NCBI GenBank assembly: GCA_947447525.1
Contig: CANFJL010000002.1
Location: forward strand, 124,001 to 188,000
DNA length: 64,000 bases
Origin: Flavobacteriales bacterium
GTDB taxonomy: Bacteria; Bacteroidota; Bacteroidia; Flavobacteriales_D; Crocinitomicaceae
Direction: 5' to 3'
The notes beneath the pieces were generated by a model. It was not told the origin of the DNA and searched no databases. It worked only from the letters and a program-made list of their open reading frames with translations. The position numbers and the translations under genes are program-made. Positions 23,339 through 30,193 of this stretch are shown one piece after another; positions within the stretch are counted from its first letter, which is position 1; each line of letters starts with the position of its first letter.

Positions 23339-24346
23339 TTAATCATGCTGGTAGCAAAACCCGCTTGGATCTTTGGTCATCCGTTTACAGCGCGCACCTT
23401 TTTTAGTTGTTCCCATGCATTGACTTGAAGTTCCAACATTTTTAGACGAATGATGCGAACGACTTCCAGAACTACTTGATGTCCAAGACCAACAAGCAAT
23501 ACAAACCTCTTTTTCTAAAGCATTTTCTTCTCTATCAACTAACCCAGGGAAAAAATCAATACCAGTAATCCGCTCTAATTCATCTATCGAGACAACATAA
23601 CGGGTCAAAGATTCTTTAGAACCTTGATTAGGAAGAATAAAGGCAATCGCTTTTGGATGTTCATGATGGTCGAGAATTACCTTATAATAATATTTTGGAA
23701 CACTTACATGATTGGGTCCAATAGTTGGCAAACCATCAGTTAAAACTGGACCTGTTACCACATATACTGATTTATAATCTACTGCCCAATCACGAACAAG
23801 TTCCTCAAGTTTCTTCCAAATACCCCTGTTAAAACTTGGATCTTGAGGACTCATATTACTATAATAAAAAGATTCTTGCATGGTATTAGCAGTGGAGGAC
23901 ATATCGGCAGCAGGTGCCAAATGACCTCGATCATATCCAGAACCTTTATAATCACGATCCGTTGCACTTCCTGTACTTACATTTGGATCAGATTCAAAAT
24001 CATTAGATCTTTCATACAAACGATTCGTTTCATCAGCTGTTAACTCGTAAGCCACCCATGCTGCTTGTTCATATGCTTCACTGTAGCGAATAGTATACGC
24101 TAAATGCCTGATGATTTGATCCTTTGAATGAATAAGAGGCAATTCCAAATTTTCTTGTGGAGCCCTTATAGTATCTTCAAGCACCACATTAGAAACTATT
24201 TGTTCTACTTTTGGCTCAACTTTTTTTTCTGTTGGAGACAGGATCTTACTTTCCTCCTTAACCTGATGCTTATTAGATAAGACCTTTACTAAAACTCCTA
24301 TACAGAGGAAGAAAAAAAGTAAAAAAATTATGGTATATTTTTTCAT
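23339..24346 (-). CDS. Exported DNA/RNA non-specific endonuclease with Cys/His tail
   Basis: A 335-residue protein with an N-terminal membrane or signal segment (IIFLLFFFLCIGVLV). The central NUC/Serratia-type nuclease domain carries the catalytic motif GYDRGHLAPAADM (about residues 140-152 from this start), with the later asparagine in FYYSNMSPQ and FNRGIW for the metal. It cleaves DNA and RNA without sequence preference. After a Ser/His-rich linker, the last about 27 residues hold the pattern C-x8-C-x10-C-x2-H, a small zinc-knuckle-like unit. The ATG at 24346 was chosen over a TTG at 24358 that would overlap the upstream stop. It lies 1 base after the propeller gene, so the two are likely co-transcribed. 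Confidence 0.85.
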   Translation of the reverse strand: MKKYTIIFLLFFFLCIGVLVKVLSNKHQVKEESKILSPTEKKVEPKVEQIVSNVVLEDTIRAPQENLELPLIHSKDQIIRHLAYTIRYSEAYEQAAWVAYELTADETNRLYERSNDFESDPNVSTGSATDRDYKGSGYDRGHLAPAADMSSTANTMQESFYYSNMSPQDPSFNRGIWKKLEELVRDWAVDYKSVYVVTGPVLTDGLPTIGPNHVSVPKYYYKVILDHHEHPKAIAFILPNQGSKESLTRYVVSIDELERITGIDFFPGLVDREENALEKEVCIACWSWTSSSSGSRSHHSSKNVGTSSQCMGTTKKGARCKRMTKDPSGFCYQHD

Positions 24347-24347
24347 A

Positions 24348-25991
24348 TCAATTGACAATTATTTTTTGGTTTACCAACAAACCATTTTTAAATGCGACGG
24401 TTACTAAATAAGTACCACAAGACCATAGTGATACATCAACAGAAATGGAATTCGTTAAGGAATTAGTTTGATAATAAAGCTCTTTTCCATTAAGATCAAA
24501 AACCTTCAAATAATCTAACACTTTATCCATTCCAAAGACAACCTTAAAATAAGACTCAGTAGGATTCGGATACATTAAAATTGAATTTTCAGGAATAATA
24601 GGATCTTTAGGAAAATTAATCTTCCAAAGAGCACCACCTCTTTCGATTATATACAGATCGTTTTCAAGCAATTCAGCATCTACAGGCAAATAAAATCCAG
24701 AAACAACACTTCTTGTTACCATTTCATAATTATCAATCGAAGCATTATATTCTAATTTCATTTGAATCAAATCGCGAGAAGGGTCAACAAATGGGCAAGG
24801 ACTACCCCAAGGCGAGATTGGAGAAAATCCAAGACTATCACCCCCGGGCATAAAACTCAAAACAAAACCATCACCTTTATAGGGGAAAGATAAATTACTA
24901 TCTGCATCAAAGACCAATCCTAAAGGGGAACGATGGGCGGTGAAAGAACTTACATAAGTTCCATTTTGACTTGCCTGCAGAACTCCTCCACTTATAGCAT
25001 CACGATAAAAATCTCCAGCAGAACCTAAATTACGAATAGGCTCCATCCAATTTACATTATTAGGAATTGAGGGGAATCCTGAAGTGTAATTAAACCAACC
25101 AGCAGCAACACCACTTCCATTTGGATTTACAAGGGGATCAATATGATAATCATAGTTGGGATATTGTATAGGATTATCATTCCCACCCATTCTCCATGGA
25201 AATCCATAATTCCTACCATGTCTCAACCAATTCAATTCTTCCGGATCATCTCTTTCACCAGAATTATCAATGGCAAAAAGGGTATCCTTGCTATCCCAAG
25301 CCATGTCGTAAGCGTTGCGCGTACCTGATGCAAATAAATACGGACTATTAACAAGAGAAGCTGAATCATTGAGCAATAAAACATTCAAACTGTTTATTGG
25401 AAAACGAAAAATACGAGAAGTCAAAGGCACTTCTCTAGTATTTGGCCAAGCGCCATTATTATCATCTAATTCACCTAAATGAGTCCTTGCACCGCTACTA
25501 ACAAAAACATTTGAACCACTAGGATCAACTGCAACACCTGTAAAACCATGATCACCTGTTGGACTAGCAGTTGGATAAGGGTCCGTACTCACCATGACTT
25601 CCCATGTGCGTTGACCATTAAAGGAAGGCGTTCCTTTGACCACATAGCCAACACCAACGGTTGAAGTCCAATTATTACCAGAAAGATACAGCATGCCATC
25701 ACGAAAACAGAGCCCTTGGAGACAGGTGATGCCATGATCAGCCGACGTAAATCTAAGAGTATCAGTGGCGCCACCTTGTTCATTTAAAAAAATCTCATAG
25801 ATATCACCTGTTATCACAGCATAAAAAAGATGACCGCTTACAACATCATAATCTAATTTTGTTGCATAAGGTTTGGGAGTGAAAATTGAATCAACCGATA
25901 AATCAATGTATAGAGGAAAAACACGATGTTGAGCAATAGCAAGAAAATTTAATCCAATAAATGCAATGATTAAAAAATTTCGAATGAACAT
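24348..25991 (-). CDS. Glucose/sorbosone dehydrogenase-like beta-propeller with T9SS domain
   Basis: A 547-residue exported protein with a signal peptide ending LAIAQ. Most of it is a six-bladed-type propeller with GDHGFTGVAVDPSG, FASGTRNAYDMAWD and NWLRHGRNYGFPWR, the pattern of PQQ-dependent soluble glucose/sorbosone dehydrogenases. The GTRN and HG.NYGWP-like elements are typical. From about 470 a T9SS type A sorting domain follows: LMYPNPTESYFKV, then a GTYLVTVAF strand. It is predicted to act outside the cell on sugars or polyols. PQQ binding is inferred from the family only. The ATG at 25991 is preferred over a TTG nine bases upstream. Confidence 0.82.
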   Translation of the reverse strand: MFIRNFLIIAFIGLNFLAIAQHRVFPLYIDLSVDSIFTPKPYATKLDYDVVSGHLFYAVITGDIYEIFLNEQGGATDTLRFTSADHGITCLQGLCFRDGMLYLSGNNWTSTVGVGYVVKGTPSFNGQRTWEVMVSTDPYPTASPTGDHGFTGVAVDPSGSNVFVSSGARTHLGELDDNNGAWPNTREVPLTSRIFRFPINSLNVLLLNDSASLVNSPYLFASGTRNAYDMAWDSKDTLFAIDNSGERDDPEELNWLRHGRNYGFPWRMGGNDNPIQYPNYDYHIDPLVNPNGSGVAAGWFNYTSGFPSIPNNVNWMEPIRNLGSAGDFYRDAISGGVLQASQNGTYVSSFTAHRSPLGLVFDADSNLSFPYKGDGFVLSFMPGGDSLGFSPISPWGSPCPFVDPSRDLIQMKLEYNASIDNYEMVTRSVVSGFYLPVDAELLENDLYIIERGGALWKINFPKDPIIPENSILMYPNPTESYFKVVFGMDKVLDYLKVFDLNGKELYYQTNSLTNSISVDVSLWSCGTYLVTVAFKNGLLVNQKIIVN

Positions 25992-26067: not shown

Positions 26068-27492
26068 TTAAAGTTTAATATTGTACTTTTCAATTTTACT
26101 AATCAGCGTGTTAATAGCCCATCCAATGGCAATAGACGACTGTCTTTTATTCCCTTTAAAGTACTTAAGAACCCTTTCTATATGTTCTTTTTCAACAAAG
26201 GAAATATGCATTGGTTTTTCCATTGGACCTTGCGATAATCGTTTTGGTAAAACTTCAGCATTGACTAATTCCTCATTAAAAACATACAATCTTGAGATGA
26301 TATTTTCTAGTTCCCTAACATTTCCGGGATAAGAATAATTTAATAGCACCTCCAATGCTTCTTTTTCTAAGATTAATTTTTTGGGACGATTTAATTCTTT
26401 TTTCTTTTGATTTAAAAAATACTCCATCATCGCTTTTATATCTTGTTTACCCCTTTCGACCAATGATGGTAAATCTAATTCTACTACGGACAAGCGATAA
26501 TATAAATCCCATCTAAACTTACCTTCCTCACACAACTTCGTTAGACTTTGATTTGTTGCAGCGATGACCCTAACATTTATTTTCTTAGCTTTTCCTCCAA
26601 GAGGCATAACCTCTTTTTCTTGCAAGACACGCAATAAAGCTTGTTGCATATAAGGAGAAATATCCCCAATTTCATCTAGAAAAATAGTGCCTTCATTAGC
26701 TTCTTCGAATAAACCCGTAGTGTCCTTATCAGCACCGGTGAAGGCGCCTTTTTTATATCCAAACAAGCGAGATTCTAATAATGAATCACTAAATGCAGAG
26801 CAATTAACCGTAACATAAGCTTGTTCTGATCTAATTGAATTTTTGTGAATGTATTTAGCTAAATTTTCTTTTCCCGTTCCACTCGCTCCTAAGATTAATA
26901 CCGTTACTAAATCCGTTTGAGCAACCTTTTCTGCATTGTTATAAATCCACTTTATTTGAGGAGTTATAAAATAATCATCAGACACATTGCTTCTCTTAAC
27001 TTGCTCTTGATGATAAATGGCTGTAACAGGAAGTGATGATTGTTCTAATTCAATCTTAATTAATTCCGGTTTATCTTTCGTTTTAGTATACTTTGCTTCT
27101 CTTGTTTGAAAAAGAGTAGTGTTTAAATTTAATCCAAGGTGACTTAAATACCACACTACTTGCATTGAAGGAGTTCCAGGAGTAATAAAAACATCAATTT
27201 TATCCTCTTTTAGACTTGTTAGTAATGGATCCACTTTTGATTGAATTTCCCGATGATCAATGGGATCATTAATCCCCATATAAATAGGTTCAATGATACG
27301 ATCAGGATAAGTTCTTTTTAAGAAATTCACCAAGAGCTCCGTTCTTAGATCACTTTCTTTTGCACTTGAAAGCAATAAATGTTGATCTTGTTTAAAGAAG
27401 AATTTGTGATAATTTGCCGTTGGTCCATTTTCGAGAACTTTCCCTTCGTAAAAGTCATTGTTATAAGCTACCCAAGAAACCAAAGTCTTCAT
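26068..27492 (-). CDS. RtcR-like regulator: CARF domain plus sigma-54 AAA+ activator
   Basis: A 474-residue protein. Residues 1 to about 165 match the N-terminal Rossmann-like CARF domain of RtcR in order: LLVNFLKRTYPD helix, NDPIDHREI, and the ligand loop VFITPGTPSMQVVWYL (101-116). The AAA+ domain has Walker A GASGTGKE (202-209), the sigma-54 contact loop GAFTGA (249-254), Walker B TIFLDEIGD (269-277) and arginine fingers R327/R333. A Fis-type helix-turn-helix ends the protein (about 434-474, GNKRQSSIAIGWAINTLISKI). It should activate RpoN promoters when an RNA-derived ligand binds the CARF domain. No rtcA or rtcB is nearby. It follows the retron RT by 115 bases on the same strand, which suggests the retron locus is its target. 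Confidence 0.88.
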   Translation of the reverse strand: MKTLVSWVAYNNDFYEGKVLENGPTANYHKFFFKQDQHLLLSSAKESDLRTELLVNFLKRTYPDRIIEPIYMGINDPIDHREIQSKVDPLLTSLKEDKIDVFITPGTPSMQVVWYLSHLGLNLNTTLFQTREAKYTKTKDKPELIKIELEQSSLPVTAIYHQEQVKRSNVSDDYFITPQIKWIYNNAEKVAQTDLVTVLILGASGTGKENLAKYIHKNSIRSEQAYVTVNCSAFSDSLLESRLFGYKKGAFTGADKDTTGLFEEANEGTIFLDEIGDISPYMQQALLRVLQEKEVMPLGGKAKKINVRVIAATNQSLTKLCEEGKFRWDLYYRLSVVELDLPSLVERGKQDIKAMMEYFLNQKKKELNRPKKLILEKEALEVLLNYSYPGNVRELENIISRLYVFNEELVNAEVLPKRLSQGPMEKPMHISFVEKEHIERVLKYFKGNKRQSSIAIGWAINTLISKIEKYNIKL

Positions 27493-27607
27493 ATATCAAT
27501 TTTTGACATAAATATAAGAATATTTAGGTAGTAAATCCATCAACATTAAATTTCATCTTACTTAATTCACTTCAAAACATTATCACAAAGAACCTCAAAC
27601 CTAATGC

Positions 27608-28729
27608 TTATTTTTGTGCCATAGATTGATAAGACAGCCACGGAATCAAATCATTATACATTTTTTGATAAAGAAAATCATCTTTCCCTCTCACTTGACC
27701 AATAAAATTAATGTGTCCAGTTAATGAATTCAAGAATCGAATATTTCGTTGTGTCAATGAATGTGAAAAATCATCTGCATTCCTGCTTGAAGCATGATCA
27801 ATTCCATTAGTATTTAAATCATGGAGCATTGCTCGTACCTTTTTGAGCGTCTTACGATCAACATTTACTTTTTCATTAACAATTATCCCTGTCACCACTT
27901 GTTTTTTATTTTTGGACCTCAATCTAAATTTTTTATCATTCAGAGTAAAACCATGCGTCATAAGTATGTGTTTTAAGTACTGAACTTGAAGTTTAGTGAT
28001 AAATTTATCTGAAGAAAAACTCAAATCATCTGCATATCTTGTGTAAGTTATTCCTTCTTGCTCACAATAATTTAAAAGAGCATTATCGAGAGGTAAACAG
28101 ATTAAATTGGAAAGTACAGGCGAAGTTGCAACACCTTGTGGTAAGACACCATTATAAGTCAAAAGATAGGTTAAGGCTTCAGAAACAGATTCATCAAATC
28201 CAAAGGGAGGAGATCTAAAAAGCGAGTAAACCTTTTGGGCTGGAATTGAACTAAAAAAATCTTTTAAATCTAGATTAAGAAGATACCTCTTACTGACATG
28301 AGGCAAGGCATTCTGAACAATATTTGCATTTTGAGATTTATGTTTTACACTCAAGACAAAACCATGAACAGAGGGGTGTTTTAAACACGAATACACTCCT
28401 TGCAAATGACTATTAATTTTCTTTTGAACTTTATTTAGTTTCCCTTGAGGAGCATTAATAATACGAAAACCTTTTTTCCTTTTTGGAATAGTATAATTTA
28501 AATAATTCGGATAATTCAACATCAATTCCATTTCACTCCAGGAGATTCTTAGAAAAAGACATAAATCTAAGGTTGATTTTATGCCTAACATTCTAAGCGC
28601 ATATTTTTCAGCTGTATTCAAAAAAGTAAATGGAGTGGTGCGTAATGAATTATTAGGATAATAAATAAATTTCCAACATTGATCTTTAAAAATCTCTTTT
28701 TTTATCGACAAATCCTCTATTTTATTCAT
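27608..28729 (-). CDS. Retron reverse transcriptase
   Basis: A 373-residue group of RT fingers, palm and thumb with no maturase or endonuclease domain. Retron-specific features are NALPH (140-144, the NAxxH motif of region X) before motif A (NLDLKDFF, D154), LPQGVATSP (196-204), the catalytic YADD (232-235) and VTG (279-281, region Y). About 50 extra residues precede the usual RT start. The enzyme should prime at the 2'-OH of a guanosine in the RNA just upstream and make msDNA joined to RNA. The ATG lies 18 bases after the a2 repeat of the msr-msd RNA. The retron type is not one I can name. The next gene is the CARF regulator. Confidence 0.95.
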   Translation of the reverse strand: MNKIEDLSIKKEIFKDQCWKFIYYPNNSLRTTPFTFLNTAEKYALRMLGIKSTLDLCLFLRISWSEMELMLNYPNYLNYTIPKRKKGFRIINAPQGKLNKVQKKINSHLQGVYSCLKHPSVHGFVLSVKHKSQNANIVQNALPHVSKRYLLNLDLKDFFSSIPAQKVYSLFRSPPFGFDESVSEALTYLLTYNGVLPQGVATSPVLSNLICLPLDNALLNYCEQEGITYTRYADDLSFSSDKFITKLQVQYLKHILMTHGFTLNDKKFRLRSKNKKQVVTGIIVNEKVNVDRKTLKKVRAMLHDLNTNGIDHASSRNADDFSHSLTQRNIRFLNSLTGHINFIGQVRGKDDFLYQKMYNDLIPWLSYQSMAQK

Positions 28730-28740
28730 AATTATATTTT

Positions 28741-28748
28741 AAAAAAAA
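28741..28748 (-). terminator. U-tract directly after the a1:a2 stem
   Basis: The RNA strand has eight U immediately after the a2 repeat, the first being the last base of a2. A GC-containing closing stem followed by a U-run resembles an intrinsic terminator. The retron RNA might partly end here, with RT made by read-through. This is inferred from the layout only. Confidence 0.35.
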
Positions 28749-28756
28749 GCCGTTGA
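28748..28756 (-). repeat. Retron a2 inverted repeat
   Basis: The minus strand reads TCAACGGCT, the exact reverse complement of a1 at 28892-28900. It closes the 3' end of the msr-msd RNA. Confidence 0.85.
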
Positions 28757-28891
28757 ACCTTATCTCAAATTTGCGTGCATTCTTTCGAGCGAAGCGAGCA
28801 AGAATGGAGGCAAAGCCCCTTAATTCTGCTCAACTTCTAAATGGGTTGCGAGAACACAACCACAAGTCTATTAATGACTCATAAGTTCTAA

Positions 28892-28900
28892 TCAACGGCT
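28892..28900 (-). repeat. Retron a1 inverted repeat
   Basis: The minus strand reads AGCCGTTGA and pairs exactly with a2 at 28748-28756. It starts 10 bases after the last base of the DnaB-like stop codon. Confidence 0.85.
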
Positions 28901-28909
28901 CTTATACTA

Positions 28910-29950
28910 TTAAAAAGGATTTTCCTCCTCATCCAAATTTAGTTTTCGATCTTTTCTAATTTGAAATCTACTTTTTCCTTCTTCAAAAGGAGCCAATTTG
29001 CTCTTTGCGAAATCGACATTGAATTTAAGTGTAGTTAAGGAACCAAATCTATTTTTCGCTAAAATCAATTCCATCATGGCCAACGTAGATTCATTATACT
29101 CATCTATTAACAAGCCATAATATTCAGGCCTATAAACAAAGAACACCTTATCTGCATCCTGTTCAATACCCCCGCTTTCCCTAATGTCACTTAGTACAGG
29201 CCTTCTATCACCTCCCCTCATTTCAACACTTCTGTTTAGTTGACTTGAAGCAATTATACACACCTTCAATTCTAGCGCAATCTTCTTCAAAGTCCGACTA
29301 ATGTAACCCACCTCGAGAACACGACTGTTTCGATAGCGCTTAGAAGATAGCATTTGCAAATAATCAATAATAATTACCTTAACGCCCTTTTCTCTAACCA
29401 TTTTCTCACAATAATGGAACAATTCGGTCATCGATTCGATTTGTCGATCGTAAAATGAAAGATGAAGCGCAGAAAAATACGACTTTAATAATTTCAAATC
29501 ATCCGCATTCACTCTTTTAAAATCAGCTGGATTATGCAGCGGAATCGGTCGCTCTAGAAAACCATTGGCAATCCTATACATCAAAGCAGTACTCGTCAAG
29601 TCAAATGAAAAATAGAGCACCTGAGTTTGCAATGAAATCCTAGTCGCAAGATCTAACAGAACTAGCGATTTGCCCATACCGGGTCTTCCGCCAACTATTA
29701 TATATTCCCCTAGACTGAGTCCACCTAGCTGACTATCATAATTCGACCAACCTGTGGGAATAAGTTCATTAGAATTTCCCTCGCTATCATCAATGGTCTC
29801 CTCTAAACATTTTAATATGGTTCTAGAGGTATAATCATCGGTTTCACTTAAACTAGGTTCCGCTATGAGCTCCTTCAATCTATCGAGTAAAATCCCGTTT
29901 TCTGGAGGGAAATCTATTAATATATTCTGTATTTTATCTTGAATGGTCAT
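28910..29950 (-). CDS. DnaB-like RecA-fold ATPase, short form, retron-linked
   Basis: A 346-residue protein with the DnaB C-terminal ATPase fold. It has the GGLSLGEYIIVGGRPGMGKS Walker A region (76-95), FSFD at 114-117 where DnaB usually has FSLE (catalytic Glu), Walker B IIIDYLQM (193-200), SSQLNR (235-240) and DIRESGGIEQDAD (255-267). The N-terminal primase-binding domain of true DnaB is missing; only about 70 residues precede the core. A replicative helicase is therefore unlikely. The frame is open to 30037, but I chose the ATG at 29950 because the earlier part reads as non-conserved, AT-rich sequence. The stop is 10 bases before the retron a1 repeat, so it is probably co-transcribed with the retron and acts as its partner or effector. 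Confidence 0.82.
   Translation of the reverse strand: MTIQDKIQNILIDFPPENGILLDRLKELIAEPSLSETDDYTSRTILKCLEETIDDSEGNSNELIPTGWSNYDSQLGGLSLGEYIIVGGRPGMGKSLVLLDLATRISLQTQVLYFSFDLTSTALMYRIANGFLERPIPLHNPADFKRVNADDLKLLKSYFSALHLSFYDRQIESMTELFHYCEKMVREKGVKVIIIDYLQMLSSKRYRNSRVLEVGYISRTLKKIALELKVCIIASSQLNRSVEMRGGDRRPVLSDIRESGGIEQDADKVFFVYRPEYYGLLIDEYNESTLAMMELILAKNRFGSLTTLKFNVDFAKSKLAPFEEGKSRFQIRKDRKLNLDEEENPF
28934..28941 (-). promoter_or_regulatory. Possible internal promoter for the retron RNA
   Basis: The minus strand reads TAAATTTG, an exact TAnnTTTG box inside the end of the DnaB-like gene, 33 bases before a1. A start about 4 bases after it would give a retron RNA with a leader of roughly 28 bases. 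No -33 motif is present at the usual distance, so chance is possible. Confidence 0.3.
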
Positions 29951-29972: not shown

Positions 29973-29990
29973 AGACAATTATGAAGCCAA
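29973..29990 (-). promoter_or_regulatory. Imperfect sigma-54 (-24/-12) element upstream of the DnaB-like gene
   Basis: The minus strand reads TTGGCTTCATAATTGTCT. TGGC and TTG stand with the correct 7-base spacing of the sigma-54 consensus TGGCACG-N4-TTGC, but the -12 C is a T. Transcription would begin about 14 bases before the ATG at 29950. It is of interest because a sigma-54 activator is encoded in the same cluster. Confidence 0.3.
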
Positions 29991-30193
29991 AGTAAAAACA
30001 CCCTATTTATCTCAATATAATTTAAATAATATATCAAATTTTGAAAAACATAATATATTTTGATATTATAAAACCTTTTTTATGAGAACTAAAACACTAC
30101 TTTTTGAATTAATATTTCTAAAATCAATATCTTCCTGATTCACTTTCTAAATAATTAGTATTTTCGTTCTGTTGAATTCATTAATCCATCATC

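Follow-up and report, generated by a model that had tools for sequence, protein, structure and literature searches.

What kind of retron occupies this locus, and do the genes beside it belong to it? By the window we mean the whole stretch of DNA analysed here, 64,000 nucleotides long, and features within it lie on the minus strand unless stated otherwise. The reverse transcriptase (RT) gene (27608..28729) encodes a protein of 373 aa in which NALPH, YADD and VTG can be read, bearing out the NAxxH, YADD and VTG motifs given in a preliminary description of this DNA; we take these to be the motifs of retron-clade RTs. The Pfam scan returns RVT_1 alone (1.5e-22), with no fused effector domain before the protein ends at residue 373. 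PADLOC and NCBIfam retron models match the RT, and the best PADLOC models (RT-Protease_XI, 307.6 bits; RT-Toprim_I-C, 300.7 bits; RT-TIR_XII, 290.1 bits) do so over their RT part only, in contrast to L238 and L240, two other loci whose matches to I-C (542 bits) and XI (662 bits) cover almost the whole model. The closest solved structures in a PDB search are the Ec67 and Ec86 RTs (E ~6e-37), with the Ec86 RT only distantly alike at 130 bits. Among named records the nearest is a contig of a Flavobacteriales MAG, with an RT that is 98% identical.

Placing the RT in a tree had been proposed as a check on its identity. In a 62-row RT tree, which has long branches and samples a subset of retron diversity rather than the full retron tree, 30 of the 31 DnaB-linked RTs and the contig-cut RT of L182 form one group (support 88/97), separate from the I-C, XI and Ec67 rows, although its neighbours include Ec67-family, I-C and XI rows. 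The 31st comes from another family of the order and sits outside the main group on a long branch. Judged by its family scores, this tree and the covarying RNA described next, the RT is a retron RT. On the sequence we would call the retron complete in a structural sense only, and we are nearly certain that it has a DnaB-like partner.

The non-coding msr-msd RNA spans 28746..28902 and is delimited by a covariance model match and by its fold. Within it, a region of 153 nt is bounded, exactly as first described, by a perfect 9-bp inverted repeat, a1 (AGCCGTTGA, 28892..28900, read 28900-28892) pairing with a2 (TCAACGGCT, 28748..28756, read 28756-28748), with 18 nt between the end of a2 and the RT start. 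An inner helix formed by CUUAU (28881..28885) and AUAAG (28759..28763), likewise conserved, extends the closing stem beyond a1/a2. Sequence, fold and family consensus agree on two msr hairpins, likewise noted before: AGTC/GACT at 28865..28879 (28879-28876/28868-28865) and GGTTGTG/CGCAACC at 28844..28861 (28861-28855/28850-28844). The whole RNA folds to -53.7 kcal/mol, compared with -37.1 +/- 3.9 kcal/mol in 200 shuffles (z -4.24, 0/200 as good). An a1/a2 script run over the DnaB-like loci (33 rows, one contig appearing twice) found a pair in every gap, a result that is weak alone because the script always picks some best pair.

An RNAalifold consensus of 25 of the 33 DnaB-like loci, picked for diversity, contains 25 pairs. 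Across these relatives 97.2% of cells in the family helices are paired, and 17 of the 25 pairs change on both sides, in 66 cells; the observed covariation is equalled in 0/500 shuffles, and sliding the partner side lowers pairing to 30-48%. The a1/a2 family helix accounts for 11 pairs, 10 of them changed on both sides, and msr hairpin 2 for 6 pairs, with 96.7% of cells paired, so that the covariance check suggested at the outset comes out in favour of the RNA. The msd fares differently: its hairpin (approximately 28764..28842, limits inferred) appears in the single-sequence fold and contributes zero pairs to the family consensus, which leaves position, and not covariation, as its support. The branch point originally placed at G28888 is not supported, as this base is not conserved in the RNA family; the guanosine that immediately follows the inner helix, G28880, is invariant across 25/25 sequences. 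Because the branch G of Ec86 directly follows its a1 stem, G28880 is by analogy the better candidate for the guanosine of a 2'-5' linked msDNA. Rfam has no family at gathering threshold within the window; our own covariance model (R1) scores 112.4 bits there (E 1.7e-19), the window sequence being one of its training members.

Upstream of the RNA lies a short DnaB-like gene (28910..29950), which together with the CARF gene had at first been treated as mere setting. For the DnaB-like gene that view does not stand, as it is a member of the cassette; the CARF gene is its probable regulator. Among the window's own genome and 59 relatives, close RTs occur in 5 relatives at 41-94% identity, each with a short DnaB-like gene directly upstream, and DnaB-like matches of at least 215 bits are found in exactly the 6 genomes with a close RT. 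All 60 genomes have some DnaB-like match, mostly to a replicative gene of ~520 aa, and other short DnaB-like frames (e.g. in G011 and G049) are low-scoring pieces. An RT profile search of 399 genomes of the same order at 1e-30 gave 67 RT rows in 58 genomes; surroundings were covered for 53 of these rows, the other 14 all scoring at most 178 bits. Of rows at or above 300 bits, 31/32 have a DnaB-like gene directly upstream, the exception (G398:C6) being cut by a contig end, and among the examined rows below 300 bits only G128 and the fragment G398:C32 do. Counting one contig once (L021 = L157), the DnaB-retron loci other than G398:C32 number 32, in 31 genomes.

The RNA leads to the same gene. 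The covariance model, built from 25 training sequences, has 37 matches in 36 of the 399 genomes of the order, and a DnaB-like gene precedes 37/37 of them, 25 having trained the model and 12 not. Thirty-two are the known DnaB-retron loci; the five further matches (G188, G335, G360, G365 and G398:C32) lie near contig ends, have a DnaB-like gene upstream in 5/5 cases and an RT remnant in three, and comprise four with no RT row in the order-wide profile search and one with an RT fragment. Against 50 chosen loci the model recovers six held-out relatives and the training locus L161 at E <=1e-12, L080 at E 0.0066, and every other source at 0.29 or above. These counts exclude chance adjacency of RT and DnaB-like gene. 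The two proteins also diverge together (Mantel r 0.94, 0/2000 permutations, 31 pairs), with the caveat that shared host ancestry inflates both the co-occurrence and this co-divergence. Of the RNA matches, 36/37 fall in one family, and the partner is constant in 8 genera. Host genus and RT lineage are interleaved in the RT tree, which suggests that the cassette has been transferred as a unit.

A single RT query of a viral collection gave 2 stretches and no relative. Queries with alignments covered the 80 best of 390 relatives in one case and the 80 best of 230 in the other. Among 181 loci checked from the viral, phylum and plasmid/phage sets only L080 and L265, which are the same contig, have a DnaB-like gene before the RT. 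A phylum-wide RT search found 12/395 genomes at 1e-60 (the window's own and 11 others), and within 1.5-kb flanks a DnaB-like gene was absent from 12/12 loci checked from this search, one of which is the own genome's second RT. In the viral-collection contig, the DnaB-like member (L080 4937-5815, plus strand) has its Walker A Lys changed to Arg and an altered Walker B, beside retron RNA and RT.

The DnaB-like protein has 346 aa from ATG 29950. A longer reading frame from TTG 30037 was rejected, as it overruns the promoter described below, and the shorter form agrees with the 306-380 aa of relatives (some contig-cut or overextended). Pfam DnaB_C matches it at 1.5e-59, and a profile search with the family profile matches DnaB in the PDB at 1.7e-60, beginning at residue 133 of 2vye; the C-terminal ATPase domain of DnaB is thus present, and the N-terminal primase-binding domain is absent, as judged by the length of 346 aa and by alignment with the host DnaB. 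The Walker A Lys is kept in 31/32 aligned members and the Walker B Asp in 32/32. The strength of the ATPase is doubtful, since Asp replaces the catalytic Glu of DnaB in 23/32 members, the trans Lys/Arg motif, kept in 30/32, is altered in 2, and one aligned member has Arg for the Walker A Lys. In a quick tree the DnaB-like proteins are set off from seven replicative DnaBs (SH-aLRT 99), and against the PADLOC retron effectors those of the window, L162, L180 and L080 match only mad8, at no more than 25 bits. The AlphaFold model of the protein is poor (pLDDT 63). An acidic stretch with a PF end, seen in most DnaB-like proteins, was considered as a mimic of the SSB tail and set aside: the host's own replicative DnaB ends alike, so the tail is inherited.

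A single-domain beta-clamp-like protein is encoded in some relatives (L169 7101-7664, plus strand), standing after the RT also in L162, L164, L167, L168 and L170, and a seventh locus has one near its DnaB retron (L181 9121-9711, minus strand); the gene is absent from the window's neighbourhood.

Downstream of the RT gene lies the probable regulator (26068..27492), a sigma-54 activator with a CARF, sigma-54 AAA and HTH layout that matches PADLOC RtcR_PspF2 at 438.1 bits over 1-473. It has a match at 1e-90 in 26/32 retron genomes and occurs in 41/399 genomes of the order. The six retron genomes without such a match, among them G395 with an 86-aa piece near a contig end, imply that the regulator is not essential. 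Conversely, 15/41 CARF carriers lack a DnaB-retron RT, and three of these (G188, G335 and G365) have the RNA and the DnaB-like gene. CARF gene and retron fall within the same examined stretch in 17/32 loci (one being the 86-aa piece), on either side and either strand, and in several genomes the CARF gene stands divergent to an operon that has a sigma-54 promoter. One such operon (L028 4822-6426, plus strand) encodes a 157-aa protein, a 153-aa protein and a vWA protein, followed in the same direction by the DnaB retron; the 157-aa protein, product of the first gene divergent from CARF, belongs to a cluster that covers 12 loci and has no Pfam match. Two genes downstream of CARF, the window also encodes a DNA/RNA non-specific endonuclease that carries a DUF5763-like stretch at its C-terminus (23339-24358).

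What would connect this activator with the retron is the sequence before the DnaB-like gene, where motif patterns place a sigma-54-type promoter (TTGGCTTCATAATTGTC, 29974..29990) and a UAS palindrome (TCAAAATTTGATA, 30032..30044). The only other fit to the UAS pattern in the 64 kb, not assigned to a strand, lies directly before the CARF gene (27494..27508) and may reflect autoregulation of that gene. The upstreams of DnaB-like genes revealed the pattern TTGG-N8-TTG and the palindrome TCAAWWWTTGAYA, and RpoN is present in 32/32 retron genomes. Thirty upstreams are full (2/32 being too short), 26 of them from CARF carriers including G395; the sigma-54 pattern occurs in 17/26 of the latter against 0.83 expected and the palindrome in 14/26 against 0.47, counts that near-copies among the 26 inflate, and both motifs are found in 0/4 full upstreams from genomes without CARF. 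The palindrome starts 54-55 or 73-76 bp from the start of the promoter, and 74-75 bp from it at CARF's own divergent promoters. Nine of the 26 lack the sigma-54 pattern; in three (L028, L029 and L159) the retron stands behind other genes, which in L028 and L029 follow the CARF-divergent promoter, and the remaining six have no such explanation.

These counts need to be read with care. A strict sigma-54 consensus found few sites and the pattern was re-set from CARF-divergent promoters and DnaB-like upstreams, making the upstream count partly circular; each single motif is weak evidence, matching 20/282 other genes near the loci. Because the motif was partly derived from these loci, its genome-wide uniqueness carries the weight rather than its count, and counting the composite over whole genomes is the better test, though this pattern too was shaped on these loci. 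In nine genomes the exact composite occurs once each in the window's own (29974-30044), in G094, where it precedes the retron, and in G291, where it is CARF's own promoter. It is narrow, being missed in G003 and G030 (retron and CARF), G002 and G005 (CARF only) and G020 and G022 (neither). The reversed-pattern control gave 0 matches, as did 8 genome-sized sequences simulated from a Markov model trained on the window, for which the expectation is 0.008 per genome. We consider it likely that the CARF-sigma-54 activator controls the retron.

With somewhat better than even confidence, we interpret the locus as a tripartite retron with a DnaB-like ATPase that would be kept inactive and then stall replication, under CARF induction. 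Its unit would consist of the DnaB-like ATPase, the msr-msd RNA and the RT. The RT would copy the msd into msDNA, and RT, RNA and msDNA together would hold the DnaB-like protein inactive until a phage disturbed the msDNA or the RT complex and so released or activated it. The freed protein would target the replication fork, and most likely it would do so as a headless DnaB, an ATPase ring without the primase-binding N-terminal domain, which may mix or compete with DnaB on single-stranded DNA and lead to a replication stall and abortive infection. The activator would probably bind the UAS and induce transcription from the sigma-54 promoter, arming the retron upon RNA-end damage or a similar oligonucleotide signal. 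That the DnaB-like protein serves as the toxic effector, with replication as its target, is to us about as likely as not. What the computation shows is the conserved cassette, the covarying RNA, the joint divergence of the two proteins and the promoter motif with its link to CARF carriers; formation of msDNA, neutralisation, toxicity, the replication target, the CARF ligand and its binding, and phage defence are inferred. A more specific picture is offered tentatively and with more doubt than belief: a replisome mimic, in which a headless DnaB, joined in some relatives by the single-domain beta clamp, is quieted by the msDNA complex and, once released, jams the fork, and the unit as a whole is turned on by the CARF activator, which senses broken RNA or a cyclic oligonucleotide formed during phage attack.

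The DnaB-like protein may instead be a helper or sensor, processing or unwinding msDNA or RNA, or a decoy for DnaB-seizing phage proteins, with the RT complex or another gene as effector. ATPase motifs kept in nearly all aligned members would suit such a role, Pfam shows no nuclease or other toxic domain in the RT or the DnaB-like protein, and a replisome decoy would accord with the clamp-like gene that directly follows the RT in 6 loci. Yet no other gene is as constant as the DnaB-like one: clustering of genes across the loci places the RT in 51, the DnaB-like gene in 33 and CARF next with 18 (L021 and L157 being one contig, and 1/18 CARF genes standing beside another kind of RT). Known retrons, moreover, typically pair an RT with a toxic effector (PMC12548924), and we regard a helper or sensor as somewhat unlikely. 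Still more improbable, to a degree that we give it very little credence, is a degenerate RT-protease, RT-Toprim or RT-TIR fusion retron that has lost its fused effector and has a DnaB duplicate adjacent by chance. The best RT models are indeed those of types XI, I-C and XII, but the DnaB-linked RTs group apart from the I-C/XI/Ec67 rows, at the 88/97 support given above, and a partner constant in 8 genera speaks against a chance neighbour.

The CARF gene may be a mere neighbour in a shared defence hotspot without control of the retron. Its side and strand vary between loci, it lies on another contig in several genomes, and 15 of 41 carriers lack a DnaB-retron RT. Against this, the composite promoter occurs once in the whole genome, before the retron, where ~0.008 is expected, and both motifs are missing from all four full upstreams of CARF-less genomes; a mere neighbour is an unlikely reading to us, and control of the retron by the activator the preferred one.

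In short, a freshwater bacterium carries a retron with a probable role against phages, paired with a shortened DnaB and placed behind a switch that is predicted to respond to a CARF-type sensor. The locus adds a retron type with a partner from the replication machinery, in 37 instances among 399 genomes and one viral-collection contig, and makes the regulated transcription of a retron open to test; the covariance model and the promoter motif provide the means to find more. The clamp-like gene of some relatives suggests that replication parts have been recruited more than once, and the replisome-mimic picture, if true, would make RNA-damage sensing, reverse transcription and replication arrest parts of a single defence circuit.

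Other RT systems were observed in the course of these searches. The window's own genome has a second one on contig C13 (L033 3142-5532, plus strand), in which an RT of 796 aa carries a fused histidine-kinase-like 'conflict' domain. This RT gene is divergent from a WYL regulator, and after it comes a helicase that has a TOTE TBP-like domain; this helicase family occurs in 9 clustered loci. A relative (G025) encodes a 1443-aa protein with an RT domain (L034 5402-9733, minus strand), and RT-domain frames of 1443 and 1452 aa are found also in G007 and G004. On a Haliscomenobacter plasmid, a retron-like RT adjoins cas1, cas2 and type III-B genes (L245 2414-3406, plus strand).

How, then, does this retron relate to described systems? 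The impression that it matches no described type holds against the PADLOC models, the best of which are fused-effector types matching in their RT part only, and the effector gene of any PADLOC-named retron type was not found in the cassette. In the open-access literature searched for retrons together with DnaB, sigma54, a sliding clamp or a replicative helicase, no paper, judged by its title and abstract start, deals with such a system. To us it is a retron type without counterpart in the PADLOC models or in that literature, judged without the 2020 type set. Having an ATPase as partner is not in itself new, since a 2026 preprint on a type IX retron lists ATPases among known retron effectors (PMC13405049). 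The nearest RT models belong to types XI (RT-protease), I-C (RT-Toprim, Ec67/Eco2) and XII (RT-TIR), from which the window RT differs in ending at 373 aa with no Toprim, protease or TIR domain found at its C-terminus and in that its partner is encoded separately, by a DnaB-like gene upstream of the RNA. With Ec86/Eco1 (type II-A) and other separate-effector retrons it shares the layout of a separate partner gene, msr-msd and RT; the Ec86 RT is also among the closest solved RTs, whereas the partner family differs and the RTs are only distantly alike. Retron-Eco8 has an OLD nuclease effector triggered by phage SSB (PMC12887533), and resembles the present system in an ATP-binding effector and a replication-linked trigger, with a DnaB-family ATPase here in place of the OLD nuclease. 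The activator shares its CARF-AAA-HTH layout with the RNA-repair activator RtcR, whose CARF domain binds 5' tRNA fragments ending in a cyclic phosphate (PMC7790460), and differs in belonging to another PADLOC subgroup (RtcR_PspF2) and in its predicted target, the retron operon. Replicative DnaB, finally, has in common with the partner protein the C-terminal RecA-like ATPase, the trans Lys/Arg motif (30/32) and the acidic PF tail, as in the host's DnaB; what distinguishes the DnaB-like proteins is that they lack the N-terminal domain and stand as a separate branch from the seven replicative DnaBs.
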